Shown here in pieces: positions 54,232-63,700 of a stretch of 64,000 nucleotides of DNA. Source of the DNA: Aquanectria penicillioides (Eukaryota; Ascomycota; Sordariomycetes; Hypocreales; Nectriaceae); contig PYIU01000008.1 in NCBI GenBank assembly GCA_003415625.1, positions 1,736,001 to 1,800,000 on the forward strand, read 5' to 3'. The stretch's first letter is position 1. Each line of letters opens with the position of its first letter. A program made the translations under genes and the position numbers. A model generated the notes under the pieces. That model was not told the DNA's origin, searched no databases, and was given only the letters and a program-made list of their open reading frames with translations.

Positions 54232-55072
54232 ATGTGGCAATCTGTTCTGGGTTTGGCGCTCATTGCGGGCCTCCTCGCCGCGACTAAATTCTCTAACCCT
54301 GCCGGCGACCCTCCCGGCAATTACACTGATAACCCGTCATACAAGATCGGAAACTTGCTAAATGTGGAATGGGAAACGGACTACGACCGACTAAACTTGG
54401 GCCTATTCTAGGTTTACGATGAAGGGGACCACAGTGGTGCTTGGGCTCCGAGTGAGTCGGGCTGTAATATGATTGCGATTGTCCTTGATCTAACGAAGGA
54501 CGCGAAGGAAACACCGATGCTACATACTACCAGTGGACTATTGGATTTCACAACTTCATCGATTGAAAAACAAGCTCGATTCCTCCCGCCTCAATAGCTC
54601 AGCCTTCTATTTCCGCCTATGCAAAGTCGGCTCGAGAGATGGAAACCGATCCCGATACTTCAACATGACCGGCACCGTGGCTGCTTCATCTTCATCGCCA
54701 TCAATGCCACAAACAGTAGCGAGTTCGACAATAGAACCGAGCAAAACATCAGTCTCATTATCTGCATCAACGTCAACAACGTCACCGACATCAGAGTCAG
54801 ACTCGACTTCCAGTGCTGGTAATGGAACATCAAAAGGAGCAATTGTCGGAATTACAGTCGTAGCGACAGCAGTTGTGTTCTCATTAATAGGGTTTCTGAT
54901 ATTTTTGGCCTAAAACATCTACGAAGGGAGAAGTCAAACGACCCCAAGGACCACTGTGATGAAGATTCCCTAAGTAAACGGGAACACCTTCCAGTGGTAT
55001 TATATCCCGGAGACAAATGTGTGAAGTGGAAATGTCCACAGATAGCACAGTGGCACCTGGACACGAGCTTCT
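54232..55072 (+). pseudogene. secreted/single-pass membrane protein pseudogene
   Basis: From ATG 54,232 a signal peptide (MWQSVLGLALIAGLLAA) leads into FSNPAGDPPGNYTDNP, YKIGNLLNVEWETDYDRLNLGLF and onwards. This is the layout of a common fungal family: signal peptide, beta-rich ectodomain, Ser/Thr-rich stalk, one membrane helix. Breaks: TAG at 54,409-54,411 (LGLF*V, consistent with CAG to TAG); a frameshift near 54,510 into TYYQWTIGFHNFID; a stop there and a third frame from about 54,560 that gives SSAFYFRLCK, SRYFNMTGTVAAS, the Ser/Thr stalk and the helix GAIVGITVVATAVVFSLIGFL ending at 54,913. Another frame continues with a charged tail (LKHLRREKSNDPKDH) to about 55,072. With one nonsense and two or three frame changes I call it a pseudogene; unrecognised introns could explain some of them. 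Confidence 0.65.
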
Positions 55073-55334: not shown

Positions 55335-58300
55335 CTAATCATCACTATCTTCTTCCCAAAGATGGCCATCGTCTTCACCACCACTTATAGATGCTCCATC
55401 ATCATGGCAGCACAAACCGCAGAACAAGATTTTGTGCTGAGATGATGCTTCTATAACGTCCTCCACTATCTGCGCTGCAGTGGGACGAGCTAATTGGTCC
55501 GGCTGCAACATACTTTTCGCCCATCCCAAAATGACATTATCTGTTTTTGGGGCAAGTTCATACAGCTGATCTATCCAAGCAATGGTGTTATCGCGATTCG
55601 CGTGAAAGTAGTAGTTCTCACTTCGTTCCTTGAAAAACAATTGCATCTCGTCCACCGACCTGCCTTTGAGAACCGTGGCCATTTCTAGGAATACGCAGCC
55701 TAGGGACCAGATGTCTGCAGATTCGTTCCGCGCCTCAACCCGGACGACTTCGGGTGCCGCATAAACCAGGGTTTTCCCAGAATCGGCCGTCGTCGTCCCT
55801 CGCGTCAAGTTCTCCCAGCAGAAGGAGATACCAAAATCAGTCACCAAAACACAATCTCCCTTGACGACGATATTCTGAGGCTTTATGTCCCGATGCCGGA
55901 TTTTTTGGTCATGTAAGTACGCCAGAGCATTGGCGAGACAGCCAAAGAAACTTCTCAAAAGAGAAAGCTTATCAGAGTTGTCTCGGGCAGCTTCATAGAA
56001 TGAAACAAAATTATAGTCGCCGACAGGTTCCATAAGAAGAGCGAAGTACTTGGGGTCAGAATAGCTCGCAATCTACCGATGGTCAGTATCTCTCTTACTG
56101 GACTCATAAGTGGCAGAGTTGGAACAACTAACCAACTCCACACAATGCCTGTGGTTCACACGCTTGAGCACAGTGAGTTCCGTAATGAATGTTTTGACGT
56201 CGACCTGTCTTAGACCTCGGACTCTCCGGTACAGCTTCCTAGCGTATTCCTGGTGCGACGTGGTACTCATTACTTTGTCAACGATTCCGTAAGCGCCGAT
56301 TCCCAATTTCGCAATCGAATTGAATGGAAGATGGTCGTCTTGAGAAAAGTGCGCATGCTTGCGCGTATCACTTTTCTCAAGTTTGAAGCCCTTTGAATAG
56401 ACCACTGATTGAATATCGAGAAATCGAGTGCGATCCGCGGGCTGCAGGCTTGACGGTAAGGTAGCAGATGAAAAGGGAAACCACATGTCGGTAATACCTT
56501 TCGTCATGAAGCTGCTCATGGCATCGAGTTGACCAATTCGACGAAGCACCGTGTATAGTCTTGGGACATTGCTCCATTCTGGGTTTCCAGTATTTCGTAG
56601 AAAGGTCGACACGTGCTCGAATTCGGCATCTGTAAATGCATCATGCATGGAAGCATTGGAGCTTGAGAACATGCCGTCAAGCCCCTGAGCATCATTTGGG
56701 GCTGGCTGAGGCGCTGAACTTGGCGGCGCCGGCTGTTTGTCCATCATCGCCGGCCCAACTTCCTTTGAAGATTCCCGTTCTTTTGTGACATGAGCCTCCA
56801 AGTGTTCCCAATCATCCGTCTTATTGGCCTGTTCCACCGAGAGGGGTAACGCCTTTGGCTTGACAGAGCTAGTGTGATAAGGAATATTGTGGCCTGGTTG
56901 CTCCGGCTGAACACCTTGCACATCCTGCAGCTTGGCTGGATTTAGATATGCCTTGTCAATTTCGTCTAGCCGTTTCAGAAACTGAAGATCCTCAATTGGG
57001 TCCTTGAGAGTAGACTTTTCAAGCTTTCTCATCATCCCCTCGACCTCATTCAGAAGTTGTTCAGTTATTGATGTTGAAGGAAGTAAGGTTAAGCCCTTGG
57101 AAACATGGTCAAGCCTAGCTTTGACAGCTTTGCAGTTTGAGTATATCTGTTGAATGGAACTCAACTCAAGGCCAATATTATCAACGTCGACTTCTAGCCA
57201 CTTTAGAATTTCGATTTTAGCGTCTGGGTCTTCCGATAAACGCAATCGAATCTTTTTAAGCGACCCGAGTAGTGCCTCCGACTCTGCAGTTGATTCTAAT
57301 TCGACGAGGTCCTGATGCATCGACGTAAGACGTGAGTCAAGTGTGTCATGTAGAGTTACTCTCGCGGCATCCGCCTCGTCAGCTTGCCTATACAGATTGG
57401 CATCCTCGGTTAACTCCTGAAGTTTTAGACTTGGGAGTTCTCCGGCGAGATTCAATCGCTCTCGCACAGATTGCCCAGTATCTTCTCTTTCCAAGATGCA
57501 GTGCGTAACCATACCATTGGGCGTAACATCAATAGTACATTTCAGTAACACCCAGTCCGTGCGAATCGGAAAACCTAAGTCTTTTAGGCTGATCGCCGCA
57601 ACGAATATATTATCCCGTGCCATTGACATGTTCCCCTCGTAGACGCGCGCGGCTCTGGTTCTGCCTAATACTTTAACATATGTCGTCTTTTTTCCAGGCA
57701 GTGTGTAGTTGGATGGAAACACTACGTGCATTTTACCACGGTATGACTCGATTCCAATGTTGTTAGGGAGGATTTCCATGGCTAGTAGCTCGCAAAGGTG
57801 CTTGCTGGATTGATCTTGAGATAGGACCGCAGCGTGAATCGCAAGCCCAGATACTGCTGCATTATCGGGGTTCAGTGATTTTGTCAAGGGCCTACCACTA
57901 AAGTAATCCGATAGGACCTGTTGAATCCGAGGTATTCGTGAGCAGCCTCCGACAGGCAGGACATGGTCGATGTCACGGCTGGATATCTTCGCACTTTGCA
58001 ATGCAATCTCTATTGGTTTGATTATGCGCGGGAATAGATCCTGACACAGAGATTCAAATTTGCTTCTTGAGAAGATGCTGTGGAAATCAAGATTGTTCCA
58101 CAGACAATCAATGTTGAGATGCACAGTCTGTGCGGAAGATAGTTCACAGACCACAGTTTCGCAGGCTGCGAGAACTCGTTGAAAGGCGCGAGAGTCCGGC
58201 TGTAATGATACTCCCCATTTGGCATTGATTTCTTTGAGCACTTCACCAAGAACTTGGTTTATGAAACTTCGGCTTCCTATATTCTCATCATAAGAAACCG

Positions 58301-58931
58301 TGTCCATTTGTAAAAGGCCTTCTTCCACGGTCGCCACTGCTACGCTGACAGCTCTTGTACCAAGGTCGATGACAATAATCCGGTGCTCCGTTTTTCGTAC
58401 GATTAGACTGTTCAATGTCCAGGTAAGGGCGATTGAGGATGGAGATATCATCGTGTGCAATACAACAAGTCCCGCAATTCTCGCAGCATCAGCGAGAGTG
58501 CTGCGGTCTCTTGTTGTGTAGCATGCTGGCACTCCAATAACAGCATAGGCGACTCTACAAGACAGATATGCCTCTGCATTTTGTTTCGCTCTAGAAAAGA
58601 TCATAGCCAAGATCTCAATTGGTGTCAGCATCCTCTTCTTTCCCAGATATTCGATTTCAATGACGGTTTCATTCCAATGATTGCTCCGCTGGATCGTAGG
58701 GATGTTGTTAACACCATATATGGACTTGATTGAGTTTCTGGTAAGTTTCGACTTTGCAGCTGTGCCAATTGACTTTCCTTTCTCATCAAAGGAAACATAG
58801 GACGGCATGTTATAGTTGCCATCAGTATCAGGTATCATTGTCACGGAATCATCTAGAAAGATCGCTACACGGGTATTGGCCGCGCCCAGATCTATCCCGA
58901 TGGCCAACCCTTTCTTGGCTTTTTTGTCCAT
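55335..58931 (-). CDS. Hsp70-like chaperone fused to Ser/Thr protein kinase
   Basis: Two exons (58,931-56,133 and 56,072-55,335) encode 1178 aa. The 60-bp phase-0 intron (GTTAGT..CTGAC..GGTAG) splits the kinase domain between CVEL and IASYSDPKYF; reading through it hits a stop. The start is ATG 58,931 with A at -3. Residues ~8-385 form an Hsp70/actin-type ATPase: GIDLGAANTRVAI (phosphate 1), IVIDLGTRAVSVAV (phosphate 2, altered), VLPVGGCSRIPRIQQVL (adenosine). Residues ~385-490 resemble the Hsp70 beta substrate domain (NNIGIES, VYEG, GMVTHCILE); ~500-670 are helical/coiled; ~690-745 a Pro-rich linker; ~755-840 the helical module often preceding fungal kinases (RLYTVLRRIGQLD). The kinase (~871-1150) keeps GIGAYG (877-882), Lys899, HRD (993-995), DFG (1012-1014), APE (1039-1041) and ends with FCGLCC. 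All catalytic residues are present, so an active cytosolic chaperone-kinase is likely. Substrates are unknown. Hsp70 normally stands alone; the fusion is unusual. Confidence 0.9.
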
Positions 58932-59055
58932 TTTCAAAATAACCTCGCGTCAGTTCTCTTGGGCACCCTCGGGCACCAAGTGGTGAAGGCTGTTTTGCAA
59001 CAGCCACAGCATCAAACTCAGGACCAAACCTTGGGTACATGCAAATTTACACGCG

Positions 59056-59063
59056 TTCTAGAA
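59056..59063. promoter_or_regulatory. heat-shock-type element TTCTAGAA
   Basis: A perfect inverted TTCnnGAA pair, 125 bp upstream of the Hsp70-kinase ATG. The heat shock factor site is alternating nGAAn units; here only two units are perfect. Its position in front of an Hsp70-domain gene is what makes it notable. Confidence 0.45.
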
Positions 59064-59140
59064 ATGGAGGCTGGTTGCCTCAATAGTGAATAAAAACCTC
59101 GTTCCAGATGCACGGAGCGTGGTCCCCTCTATTGCGTTTT

Positions 59141-59153
59141 GGAGCTTCGCGAA
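59141..59153. promoter_or_regulatory. heat-shock-type element GGAGCTTCGCGAA
   Basis: Three alternating units with correct spacing, GGA-gc-TTC-gc-GAA; the first unit is one base off the GAA consensus. It lies 210 bp upstream of the Hsp70-kinase ATG and 78 bp beyond the other TTCnnGAA site. It is consistent with heat-shock-factor control, but that is an inference from motif and context only. Confidence 0.5.
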
Positions 59154-59556
59154 AATGCTGCCGAGCTGAAGATCACTGCCATACCAAGATTTTCCCGGTT
59201 ATTGAAGGTATGCGATCTCTTTTCACTATTTCTGTCTTCAGCCAGAAATCGACGATGGTTCAAATAGTAAAAGCGACGGAATTGGAAGATGAAGGAAGGT
59301 TAGAGGAGCACAGGCGAGGCAGGGCCGTGAGGCTGACTTGGTCGACCAGGTTTGGGTGGGCCGGGATATATATTGACCGACCGGTTCCAATTACCCTGTC
59401 ACACTTTTCCTGACCAAAATATGCGCCATTAATAATAATAAGTACGGATACGAGTTGCAAAGCTGGTTTTCGCATTTGTAATGATCCAATTAGACCCACA
59501 GTGAAATATCACACCCACCACTCGCTACAATGCATTAATTTGACAGTTATCATCAC

Positions 59557-61470
59557 TCATATACAAATGGATTCCAAAGGTTTAATCACTTGCTCCCCAA
59601 AGTTCAGCTGCAATTGACCGTCCTTTTCCTCTTCCGTGTCCATAGGCTGAATCGGTAGCAAAGTTCCGTTCAGGCATGTTTTGACGGTATTCGCAAACAT
59701 ATCTCCAGCTTCTGATTCTAGTGACTCTAAAATTTCTTTTCGCAAGAGATGTGTCCTGACATTCTTTATCAGTGAAGATTTTATGTGCTTGCACACATCG
59801 ATGTTGAGGATGTCGTGCACCGGCATCCACACACCAATCTCAAATAGCACAATACCAAGACTGTAAATATCGTAAAGCTTTTTAAACCCACGATTCCCCT
59901 CTCTTGGAAAGTCAAATTGGGCGTTAGGGTGTCGGTATAGTTCGTGCAGGGGATTCTGGGATGGTAGCTCAGTCTCTTCTCCAACCCCGGACGGCCGCGA
60001 GTAGTCGAAGCCGCATAGGAAGGGTGTGGCGGTTTTGATTTGGGCCCGGTCTTGGAAAACGATGTTGTCACTTCTCAGTCCTTTGTGAAGCCAATTTGTG
60101 GCGTGAAGATACCAAACCGACGATGCAATGGCGCAGGCAATCCGAACCCGGGCTGTAAGGGATGGTTTTTTGATACTTGAGAACAAATCAAACAGCGATG
60201 TGGGAAGTTGTGACCCAAGCGACTCGGGACTCTTGTATATGAATCCAAATCGATAATGTGACTCTTGGCAGACATAACCAAGACATTCAGGAACATGAAA
60301 CTCAGAAGGTTTCATTCCATATCTCAGAAGTTTTGCCAATTTGGGTATTCGATGTCTGATAAATGGTGGAGGACTGTCATCTTCACCGACAGGTTCATAA
60401 TATCTCCATTCTATCCACACATTTAAACCGTCATATTGTGCATGTGATCGCTGTGGCTCTTCATCTTGCTCATTATCGAGGATTTTGCTCAACTTTTTAG
60501 GTGCTAGCTCGGCCGCAATAATGGCGTGATCGAGGATAGCGCGAGCTACGGGCTCATCGATAGGATTCGGCCGGTGGTCAATTGCAAGACTGAATGCTTT
60601 GAATCGTGTGAGACTTATGAGACGATCTTCGTATTTCAGCTTCCGGTAGTCTTCGCTCGACGGGCGTTGCGTTTGCTGTCCACCATTTGTCCTCACATTG
60701 AGCGTATTGAGCAACTCAACAAGGTCATCCATACGGTTATTAACTTGAAGAATTTGCATGAAGGTGGCTTCTTGCATCTGAAGATGTCTCTTTCGCTCGT
60801 AAGCTTCAAGAAAACCTAGCATATCTTCATTTAAAGCCCGCAAATGGGATAGAAGTTGCTCAAAATTGTCTTTATCAAACGACGCCCACCGGAGCTTTTG
60901 AGGATACTTTCGAGTCTTTGTGATAAAGCTCAAGGCTTTTTTCTGCAAGTCTGCAAATTCTTTTTGTAGAGGCTGTGGAACAATTTAGTTTGCGCTGCAC
61001 AACATGCTCTGCACGAACGTACTTTGCTAGTGGAAGAAGAAATATTCACTGGTGCAGAACCACCCTCTTCCGGGGCAATGATTAGTTTCAATTTATATCG
61101 TTTGTCAAGTTGAGCTGTATCAAGAAGTAGAATCTGGATCTCGCGTAGCGCATCGGTGATGTTATGTCTGCTTAATCTCAATGTCGGGCCTGCTAGATCA
61201 TCACCATCGGCAACCTTTGCCAGAAGTGCCCATCCAAGCAACTTCTCTTTCTCCATAGAGAGTCGCACCAAAAGGTATCTGGCAGATTTCGGCATGCCCT
61301 CTGCTTCTAGTATTAGTTCGTAGCCTGCGCCGGTCACACTTTAGTCAACATCCAGGACACGCAGGCGAGGAGCGGGGTAAATTGGCACAACCCTTTACGC
61401 AAGCCGAGAATAACTCAAACGCCAACGAAACAACGCCGACCCCGAGCCCAGCAACACCAAGCGGATCCAT
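59557..61470 (-). CDS. HeLo-domain protein with C-terminal pseudokinase
   Basis: Three exons (61,470-61,392; 61,324-61,023; 60,972-59,557) encode 598 aa. Intron 1 (67 bp, GTTGTG..GACTAA..GCGCAG) joins ..FSACVK to GYELILEAEG; intron 2 (50 bp, GTACGT..ACTAA..CACAG) restores frame from TSK to PLQKEF. Without intron 1 the gene has no ATG. Residues 1-215 match the HET-s HeLo fold in order: MDPLGVAGLGVGVVSLAFEL, MEKEKLLGWALL, ILLLDTAQLDKRYKLKL, the KTRKYPQKLRWASFDKD region. HeLo domains are membrane-permeabilising helical bundles of fungal incompatibility death. Residues ~300-565 are kinase-like but dead: LHKGLRSDNI (423 on) replaces HRDxKxxN, GFDYSRP (448 on) stands at DFG, and no glycine loop or beta-3 Lys is visible; YDIYSLGIVLFE keeps the fold. 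No C-terminal amyloid motif is seen. Domain logic resembles MLKL; death activity is inferred. It lies 626 bp upstream of the Hsp70-kinase gene, same strand. Confidence 0.85.
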
Positions 61471-61710: not shown

Positions 61711-63700
61711 TTATGATGCAGAGCATAGGGATCTCCCTCGCAAGAGGTTTCCGGGAAATAGATTCGAACGTAAAACATCTAGGATATGCATTAATCTATC
61801 ATCGATATGTATACATTGGCACTCGGGGGTGCTTTCTATGGCGCTTCTTTTTTCCTCTGCTGTCTTTGCTCGTCGTTTCCTCAGACACCGAGTAACCACA
61901 CATGCAATAATAAGAAGACAAATAGCCCCGACAACTGATGCAATGATGATGACAACATTTCTGTTGTTATCAAACCAGTTTCCTGACTGACGGGTTCTTC
62001 CGGAATTGTTTGTGTTGTTATTGTTGTTGTTATTTGTTGGACTATCACTTGTTGCGCAAGGTTCTGCCGAACAACAACTGCTGTCCGTTGACGTAGTGTT
62101 GGCACATGGCGATGGCGGAATGTCAATGGTGGTGACATTGTCGTTTCCTCTCAAGCACTCAGTTCTTATAGTGCCTCGGCCGATAGCGGTACAGATTGCT
62201 CCAATTGTGCAAGGGGAGAATGCTCGGATGCCTCCTCCGGCCGCAGGGTTCATGAGGTATTGTCCACCTGCATCGCATGTATCTTGACTGAGAGGACAAC
62301 ATTGAGAGGCAGAAGTTGCATCAGCGCAAGTGTCAGATGTGCAATCATGAGTCGCGCCAAAGCTATGACCAATCTCATGAGCGATGACCTGCCATTCTTG
62401 TGGGTTTCGAATGATGATATTAGTGGACGAGGACGTTTGCAAAGTCTGGCCATTGTAGAAGTTATTCGACCCTTGGCGGCAGACTTCACCAAGCCATGAC
62501 ACACCAACAGTTGATCCAGTACGACACGCACTGAAAAGTGTCCACAAGGCATTGCGATCCTGAATTTGTCCCCTCCACCGAGAAAAACGGCTTAACCGAT
62601 CCGTCGTATCAGCATCGGCAGTACACGGGATATTCCACTCCGTGAGCGAGGAGGAGGTTGAGGGACAGGCCGCATCACTAATCGTGAAGTTCCGGATTGC
62701 CAAGCTGATATTGAAAGTGTCCTCGTAGACTTGGGAAGCAGAGTTGATCTGAGAGAACACATGAGAGCGTAGCTCATCCACGGAGCTAAATTCAGCAGTA
62801 TAGCTACAGTCCGTAGCGATGCCCATGAGAGCAACCAGCCTAGTTGATGGACATCCGGCTGTGGATCCGATTGTGTCGGTGAGATCGTTACCGGAATCTT
62901 GCCGTCCTACAAGCTGCATTGGCAAGTGCTTCAGAAATCCCTTGCCTTTTCGATCGCTTTGGCGAGAGCTGAGATGTTGATTGTCCGCTTGTTGAACGTT
63001 TTCCACTCCACAAATAAGGTCACCATCTGAATCTGACCTGCGCAGGTCCTCATGGTCCCCGGTTGGGTTCTCATCTCCATCCCTCCATACCACCATGAAT
63101 CGTTTATCAGAGGTTGTATCAGAAGCATCTGAAGCCGCATCTTTCTGGACAACTGAAGAATCGAGCTTTATATGAAATCGATCGCTGTTGATTGTGAATG
63201 TGCCATCAAACAAGGTATTCTCTCCAAGCTCTTGGATTGCTATTCTTGCTACCCCAACATCATTCCACCGGTCATTGTTAGCATCGTGTACAAAAGTCCT
63301 TCCTTTGAAAATGAAATGCTCAGATCTCCGAATAGGCACGATGCTGGATAAAGCTCCATCAGGACGAATGTAGTGGACAGCTTCTAGATTGGATAGAATC
63401 TCGTCATTAGGGACCAGTCGCAGCTTTAATCTCTGGTTTTCTCCATGTAAAGAGAATTTCAAGTCGATATTTGATGATGCATCAATAGTTCTTGACTCTG
63501 ATTCTACTGTCACATTCTCGATCCAGGTAGTGCGGCTAGGTAAGTTCCTGCGTATTGAGAGAGCTATAAAGGGAATCGTTAATTATTGAACCTAATGCGC
63601 TATAGATGAGCAGAATAGACTAGGGGGACATACCACTCAAATTGCTTGTGAAAACTAGTATCACCAGAAATATCGTAGCTGACCAGCTCGACAGCGCCAT
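61711..63700 (-). CDS. ADAM-type zinc metalloprotease, single-pass membrane
   Basis: Two exons (63,700-63,634 and 63,563-61,711) encode 639 aa; the 70-bp intron (GTATGT..ATTAAC..TTTATAG) separates the signal peptide from the rest. ATG 63,700 gives the signal peptide MALSSWSATIFLVILVFTSN; the longest single-exon frame would lack it. Residues ~24-240 are a propeptide, with Cys207 (DLICGVE) a possible cysteine switch. The catalytic domain (~255-495) has HEIGHSFGATHD (418-429, three Zn-binding His and the catalytic Glu) and the Met-turn YLMNP (458-462). Fungal ADAMs usually continue with a Cys-rich disintegrin domain; here only a short Cys-containing stretch and a Ser/Asn-rich spacer (NNNNNNNTNN) precede one helix (~559-579, VVIIIASVVGAICLLIIACVV), a CLRKRR stop-transfer and a ~55-residue tail. 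It probably cleaves or sheds surface or secreted proteins. It is co-oriented with the HeLo gene 240 bp downstream. Confidence 0.9.

Follow-up and report, generated by a model that had tools for sequence, protein, structure and literature searches.

The stretch of DNA analysed here (the window) comprises 64,000 nucleotides of the ascomycete Aquanectria penicillioides, C12:1736001-1800000 in a genome of 53.8 Mb on 13 contigs, and carries two adjacent genes on the minus strand, an upstream gene for a HeLo domain joined to a pseudokinase domain (gene B, HeLo-pseudokinase) and a downstream gene for an Hsp70 joined to a Ser/Thr kinase (gene A, Hsp70-kinase), with 625 bases between the two reading frames (Table 1). 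An earlier interpretation made from the letters of the window (the sequence-only reading) had placed two neighbouring genes of one orientation here; splicing and the Pfam matches confirmed this, with the same outer limits (61470 and 55335) and with both reading frames complete after splicing. The domain assignments of both proteins are supported by Pfam, PDB and AlphaFold comparisons, the last using predicted models of orthologues. The pair is not a chance arrangement, as other fungi or contigs from metagenomes yielded a count of 20 homologous pairs and a second pair was found in the same genome. Relatives were taken from protein searches, of which the best 120 of 485 for the kinase and the best 120 of 266 for the HeLo-pseudokinase were used; counts out of 120 or 121 below refer to these. 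Among the matches listed, the nearest relatives of both proteins came from Dactylonectria, Ilyonectria, Cylindrodendrum and Cosmosporella, and the three nearest to gene B (P0121-P0123) were 64-65% identical over 92-100% of the protein.

Table 1. Features of the gene pair (window positions) and, in the last row, of the second pair in the same genome (aa, amino acids; NBD, nucleotide-binding domain)
Feature	Position	Strand	Basis
Gene B, HeLo-pseudokinase, 598 aa	59557..61470	-	exons 61470-61392, 61324-61023, 60972-59557; GT...AG introns, continuous frame
HeLo domain, residues 8-212, including a hydrophobic helix at the N-terminus	60718..61449	-	PF14479, E 4.9e-33; hydropathy
Pseudokinase domain, about residues 300-598	59557..60456	-	weak PF07714/PF00069/DUF7580 matches; fold of orthologue
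HKG (H423-K424-G425) where HRD is expected	60079..60087	-	gene B translation and homologues
GFD (residues 448-450) where DFG is expected	60004..60012	-	gene B translation and homologues
Candidate phosphosites S452 and T461, activation loop	59971..60000	-	conservation in aligned rows
Gene A, Hsp70-kinase, 1178 aa	55335..58931	-	exons 58931-56133, 56072-55335; relatives with both domains exist
Degenerate Hsp70, residues 10-562, NBD and substrate-binding domain	57246..58904	-	PF00012, E 1.3e-95
Helical pre-kinase module, residues 741-870, conserved	56322..56711	-	no Pfam match within; BLAST in relatives
Ser/Thr kinase domain, residues 871-1138; K899, HRD 993-995, DFG 1012-1014	55458..56321	-	PF00069, E 1.7e-41
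HRD catalytic triplet, H993-R994-D995	55887..55895	-	translation, motif check
Second pair, kinase-ankyrin and HeLo-pseudokinase	L031 1231-2766 and L014 283-2199 (C12:3286.6-3290.3 kb)	tail-to-tail	

The N-terminal part of the gene B protein scored 115.1 bits against PF14479 (cut-off 23.2), and a profile built from 75 relatives matched the solved HET-s HeLo structure 2wvo (E 4e-10). The highest Kyte-Doolittle mean over 19 residues in its N-terminal helix was 1.86 (residues 7-25). The kinase matches in the C-terminal part were weak and fell within residues 378-595, with PF07714 (26.9 bits) slightly above its cut-off of 23.1, and PF00069 (25.0 bits; cut-off 31.7) and DUF7580 (24.2 bits; cut-off 27) below theirs. 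The pseudokinase fold of an orthologue was closest to RAF, with RIPK1 and RIPK4 also among the matches listed. In an alignment of 241 rows (the window protein and 240 homologues, gapped rows set aside per column), the catalytic Asp was missing at position 425 in 240/240 rows, the preceding residue was Lys in 236/240, and position 448, where DFG would start, was Gly in 238/238. When the same 240 homologues were searched for the motifs, HKG was present in 189 of the 208 where the pattern was located and GFD or GFE in 217 of 230. Together with Pfam and the translation, these counts bear out the earlier claim of a HeLo domain followed by a dead kinase carrying HKG for HRD. The protein has an N-terminal helical bundle and a C-terminal pseudokinase without HRD and DFG, as an MLKL-like executioner has, and its C-terminus is the pseudokinase, where HET-S-type effectors have a prion-forming tail. 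In a scan that covered, of the amyloid motifs, the RHIM/PP core GxQxG alone, this core was absent from both window proteins and was found in 4/120 kinases and 11/120 HeLo-pseudokinases. In the activation loop, position 461 was T or S in 223/238 aligned rows and position 452 was S in 201/237. A phosphosite peculiar to the paired HeLo-pseudokinases was not supported, since T/S at 461 was similarly frequent in them (21/21) and in three other groups (30/32, 65/67 and 107/118).

The kinase domain of gene A retains K899, the alpha-C Glu, HRD, DFG and APE, and would be predicted from these residues to be an active Ser/Thr kinase, as RIPK3 is; a live kinase joined to an Hsp70, as the sequence-only reading had it, was thereby upheld by Pfam and the catalytic motifs. 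The partner kinases show the same condition. Among the 21 of them (the window kinase and 20 paired kinases), 18 have gene models that reach the catalytic loop, those of P0059, P0063 and P0074 ending before it, and all 18 carry H-R/K/Q-D (13 HRD, 4 HKD and 1 HQD), DFG and APE. The lysine of the YARK motif was found in 19/21, P0017 and P0052 being without the lysine stretch.

Ahead of the kinase domain lies the pre-kinase module, which was matched by BLAST in 113/120 kinase relatives, including 34/40 ankyrin types, 10/10 tetratricopeptide repeat (TPR) types and a NACHT-like one, these relatives having been chosen by likeness to residues 400-1178, which favours recovery of the module. With the window protein included, the module was matched in 114/121 sequences versus 9/121 for residues 521-740. 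Behind the kinase domain, at 55335-55424 on the minus strand, there are an FCGxCC-like cysteine motif and an acidic tail, which are common to the Hsp70 and ankyrin types; the motif occurs in 71/120 kinases and, from its residues, is possibly a lipid-anchor site. NACHT or NB-ARC domains, the hallmark of NOD-like receptors (NLRs), were not found by Pfam in either protein of the window pair.

The Hsp70 part of gene A was scored at K71, E175, D199 and D206, the ATPase catalytic residues in the numbering of bovine Hsc70, together with D10 and T204. Against the frame of a canonical Hsp70 from the same genome (L001), the equivalents of E175, T204 and D206 are lost and those of D10 and D199 are kept; the window residues at K71, E175, D199 and D206 are N, S, D and S, the K71 column being loosely aligned. 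In a comparison of 26 Hsp70-kinases (the window protein and 25 picked from 45), E175 was lost in 24, D206 in 21, T204 in 20 and K71 in 10, D199 was kept in 22/26, and D10 was kept in 24/25 as scored on the window's column, the reference frame beginning later. By the title of PDB entry 1atr, hydrolysis does not require T204. With catalytic residues lost and D10 and D199 kept, ATP may still bind and turnover is doubtful. The predicted model of the orthologue P0005 has the Hsp70 fold (NBD, beta part of the substrate-binding domain and helical lid), with TM (target) values to about 0.9 against BiP, Ssb and DnaK; it resembles ATP-bound open Hsp70s and retains the peptide-binding part. Residues and model together suggest that the Hsp70 part is probably a sensor or decoy and not a working chaperone; because its catalysis is decayed, sensing through the normal chaperone cycle would be unlikely, and this part is more readily seen as a decoy or conformational sensor. 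A 1024-aa Hsp70 frame at C11:1579631-1581481 was considered as a second Hsp70-kinase of the same genome and rejected, its translation containing no kinase; by eye it is presumably an Lhs1/GRP170-type Hsp70 of the endoplasmic reticulum.

The sensor part differs among the relatives. Sorted by eye, the kinase relatives comprise 45 Hsp70 types (one with no kinase domain listed), 40 ankyrin types, 10 TPR types and 1 NACHT-like type. A NACHT-like protein from a metagenome, P0039, has two kinase matches, the second with the pre-kinase module ahead of it and the cysteine motif behind it, and on this domain order P0039 is an NLR-like form of the sensor-kinase. The 20 paired kinases have PF00012 in 15 cases, ankyrin repeats in 4 (P0086, P0090, P0095 and P0100, of which three come from named species of Orbilia or Drechslerella) and an unassigned N-terminus in 1 (P0011, paired with P0124 in Fusarium austroafricanum). 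P0011 lacks PF00012, and its residues 1-430 found no match in Pfam (E 10), NCBIfam or a PDB sequence search; by eye this region resembles another Hsp70/actin-type ATPase, HSPA12-like, which the database searches did not confirm. Since ankyrin-bearing kinases also pair with HeLo-pseudokinases, the sensor is swappable and the kinase module constant. The earlier notion of a 'chaperone' sensing system therefore needs correcting: the Hsp70 joined to the live kinase is catalytically decayed, and as ankyrin repeats can replace it, the system is not specific to a chaperone.

The second pair of this genome is of the ankyrin type. The next most similar kinase to that of the window (C12:3286846-3287541, 35% identity) belongs to a frame that begins with MGICCS, a possible myristoyl/palmitoyl anchor judging from these residues, and ends in ankyrin repeats; it lies tail-to-tail with a HeLo-pseudokinase (matches at C12:3288641-3290209), the stop codons being 250 bases apart. 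Relatives of this HeLo-pseudokinase occur in Neurospora, Podospora, Penicillium and Fusarium among the matches listed. Two of seven HeLo-pseudokinases of the genome, hand-picked from search hits and including one with stops (C2 near 65 kb), have one of 47 kinase hits at a distance of at most 6 kb, for which the chance is about 0.002 if gene clustering is ignored.

Linkage in other species was judged not on DNA but on locus tags (6 pairs) and on contigs of exactly equal size (20 pairs). Among the 120 HeLo-pseudokinase relatives there are 21 whose contig is exactly as long as that of a listed kinase, whereas a control with sizes shifted by up to 200 gave 0.10 on average and 2 at most; 19 of these 21 fall within the first 51 listed. 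One case, P0232/P0032 of Diaporthe amygdali, was left out for its distant locus tags, giving the 20 pairs counted. Consecutive tags were found in 6/20 (Cosmosporella 022990/023000, in steps of ten; Fusarium decemcellulare 2721/2722; Fusarium DS 682 014683/014684; Purpureocillium 004940/004941; Apiospora 003603/003604; Orbilia 000754/000755), the remaining pairs being identified by the shared contig alone. Species in which the two families sit on one contig or carry consecutive tags belong to Hypocreales, Sordariales, Xylariales/Amphisphaeriales, Diaporthales and Orbiliales. The distance matrices of HeLo-pseudokinases and kinases from 21 pairs were correlated (r = 0.83), a value reached in 0/2000 permutations; the correlation by itself is weak evidence because shared species history also yields one. 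In Fusarium austroafricanum there are two pairs; both proteins of one are nearest to those of the F. decemcellulare pair, and both proteins of the other to those of the pair in Fusarium DS 682. Linkage by chance was rejected by the size-shift control and by these two pairs, and tags and shared contigs show that the adjacency is conserved across species, as in two-gene clusters of a sensor and an effector. The sequence-only reading had staked itself on a conserved neighbourhood in related species, and contig sharing and co-inheritance both came out in its favour; its interpretation is thus partly supported, in that the live kinase and the HeLo-pseudokinase are linked, co-inherited and RIPK3/MLKL-like in make-up.

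As to the surroundings, the window opens with an AT-rich block (17-22% GC) that takes up bases 1 to about 53000, and the pair sits in the stretch of normal GC beyond it. The block, more than 50 kb long, stops sharply ahead of the pair; it is perhaps a centromere or heterochromatin mutated by repeat-induced point mutation, and contains a low-complexity, strand-skewed stretch at 10-12 kb. At its edge (54232-54913) there is, by eye, the remnant of a gene for a small protein, either secreted or membrane-bound; it contains an in-frame stop and a frame change. Directly upstream of the pair, at 61711-63582 on the minus strand, lies an ordinary-looking gene for a Reprolysin/ADAM-type metalloprotease (PF13688, E 5e-60).

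The observations of domain make-up, live and dead motifs, linkage, co-inheritance, sensor swap and Hsp70 catalytic decay are best accommodated, in our estimate with a probability of about two in three, by a modular two-gene system of regulated cell death in ascomycetes, in which a sensor-kinase and an MLKL-like HeLo-pseudokinase executioner act by phosphorylation. In gene A, a swappable sensor, which is a decayed Hsp70 in the window and ankyrin repeats in other pairs, would sit on the fixed pre-kinase/kinase module, and gene B would carry a HeLo membrane-attack domain restrained by the pseudokinase. Engagement of the sensor would activate the gene A kinase, which would phosphorylate its neighbour, the pseudokinase, in the activation loop, T461 and S452 being the candidate sites; this would free the HeLo bundle, its N-terminal helix would insert into the membrane, and the cell would die. 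Interaction, phosphorylation, release and killing are what we infer, as is a trigger that could be non-self, a pathogen or a client protein. A more specific version, rather doubtful though possible, is a plug-in switch resembling necroptosis with interchangeable sensors, in which the dead Hsp70 would be an integrated decoy tripped by an invader (a virus, a bacterial or fungal effector, or a foreign client).

Several results weigh against the phosphorylation-driven death system. For the other five of the seven HeLo-pseudokinases of this genome, not one of the 47 kinase hits lay within 200 kb. A separate search with the HeLo-pseudokinase of the second pair gave, among the 120 relatives listed for it, 0 contig coincidences with the kinase list, which was picked by likeness to the window kinase and comprised the best 120 of 485. 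In Diaporthe amygdali both proteins are on one 6 Mb contig with tags about 200 apart, and in Cylindrodendrum the kinase and the HeLo-pseudokinase are on different contigs. For 32 of the first 51 HeLo-pseudokinase relatives no partner was seen in the lists used; as these were best-120 lists with one contig per sequence cluster, missing partners are no proof of absence. T461 is kept about equally in HeLo-pseudokinases with no partner detected and so does not point specifically to the gene A kinase. MLKL was absent among the matches listed in the profile and fold comparisons, which excludes nothing, and no experiment on any member of the pair family was found in the open-licence literature.

Four other explanations were weighed against the death system. 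The pair could be an allorecognition (vegetative incompatibility) locus, at which strains differ and kill on fusion, in place of a sensor of pathogens or proteostasis. HET-S, a HeLo protein, is a known incompatibility determinant (PMC10197012), and the region adjoining the Hsp70 is much more divergent than the kinase module, as the counts for residues 521-740 and for the pre-kinase module show. However, the two genes stay together as a pair in different genera, whereas allorecognition by het-S/het-s is exclusive to one species (PMC10197012), and we regard this explanation as rather unlikely. It is less probable still that the two proteins form one complex in which the signal passes otherwise than by phosphorylation of the pseudokinase; the pseudokinase would then be a scaffold or an allosteric brake on the kinase, and the HeLo domain would be freed by oligomerisation of the sensor-kinase, as in templating NLR systems. 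Conserved linkage would suit any physical partnership, and the HeLo/HELL effectors HET-S and HELLP are switched on by amyloid templating (PMC12881547, PMC10197012). Amyloid templating is made less likely here by the absence of the GxQxG core from both window proteins and its rarity in relatives, the scan covering this core alone, and a mere scaffold would not need the catalytic residues that all 18 assessable partner kinases keep. We consider it improbable that the HeLo domain is a signalling or membrane-docking domain and no killer, the pair being an ordinary relay of stress signals. No toxicity test of this HeLo-pseudokinase subfamily was found in the open-licence literature, and the HET-s allele has a HeLo domain that is not toxic (PMC10197012), but gene B keeps the hydrophobic N-terminal helix that is the membrane-attacking element of HET-S (PMC10197012). 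Linkage without a functional tie, immune-type genes sharing a gene-rich niche beside a heterochromatin block, is very improbable: the pair does lie within about 3 kb of the AT-rich block, where gene order may be frozen, but the same two families share contigs or consecutive tags across several orders, with swapped sensors and paralogous pairs, and the contig-sharing control and the two pairs of F. austroafricanum largely refute it.

In the open-licence literature, as far as its text was available and with preprints and subscription papers aside, no fungal kinase adjoining a HeLo-pseudokinase was described, nor any Hsp70 sensor or Hsp70-kinase. The earlier claim that no such fungal system had been described thus stands for the kinase partner and the Hsp70 sensor and falls for the fusion of a HeLo-like domain to a kinase or pseudokinase: a 2025 review states that some HELL domains occur in proteins with a kinase or pseudokinase domain (PMC12881547), so the executioner half of the pair is not unknown. 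The same review notes that necroptotic-like pathways are often clusters of two or three genes. The links drawn in the available text of reviews between fungal cell death and necroptosis are the killer domain and amyloid motifs, plus that one sentence on kinases and pseudokinases; the pair supplies the remaining half, an MLKL-like pseudokinase with a live kinase next to it, conserved and with swappable sensors. It makes killing by a kinase acting on a pseudokinase directly testable in fungi, along with the stimuli read by the sensors, which the review calls a major open question (PMC12881547). A decayed Hsp70 as sensor, if true, would suggest a new way in which cells might keep guard over their chaperones.

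The pair can be set beside several known systems. In the fungal NLR/HeLo clusters (NWD2/HET-S and PNT1/HELLP), a HeLo-type executioner likewise adjoins its sensor (PMC12881547, PMC10197012), but the sensor here is a kinase fusion and not an NLR, no amyloid motif was seen by a simple pattern, and the effector has a pseudokinase where theirs has a prion-forming tail. The HELL proteins with a kinase or pseudokinase domain share the joining of a HeLo-type domain to a kinase-like one; for these the available text of the review names no kinase partner, and hsp70 has 0 occurrences in it (PMC12881547). Fungal gasdermin/protease clusters also place beside a membrane executioner a sensor that bears an enzyme together with NLR parts or varied repeats (PMC12881547), although there the executioner, a gasdermin, is activated by a protease, where here a kinase would act on a pseudokinase. 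In bacteria, conflict systems that contain Hsp70 and GrpE (Kaur et al., PMC7159879) similarly draft an Hsp70 into conflict, but they are GTPase-centred and, in the available text, contain no Hsp70-kinase fusion. Compared with animal RIPK3/MLKL, the fungal genes are adjacent and the kinase chain carries an Hsp70 or ankyrin sensor; the window kinase, lacking the RHIM core GxQxG, may work like RIPK3 and is not classed as RIPK3; and, unlike MLKL, the VAIK Lys is Arg in 16/21 rows of paired HeLo-pseudokinases. The pair resembles MLKL/RIPK3 in make-up, MLKL itself being absent among the matches listed. That resemblance comprises a live kinase with a helical bundle joined to a pseudokinase, a phosphorylatable residue in the activation loop, and dead motifs at the same two places, human MLKL carrying HGK and GFE at the positions of HRD and DFG (PMC5104457, PMC6013482). 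MLKL-family homologues have been reported among early-diverging fungi in Glomeromycotina only, in a study whose available text does not treat ascomycete HeLo-pseudokinases (PMC8778642).

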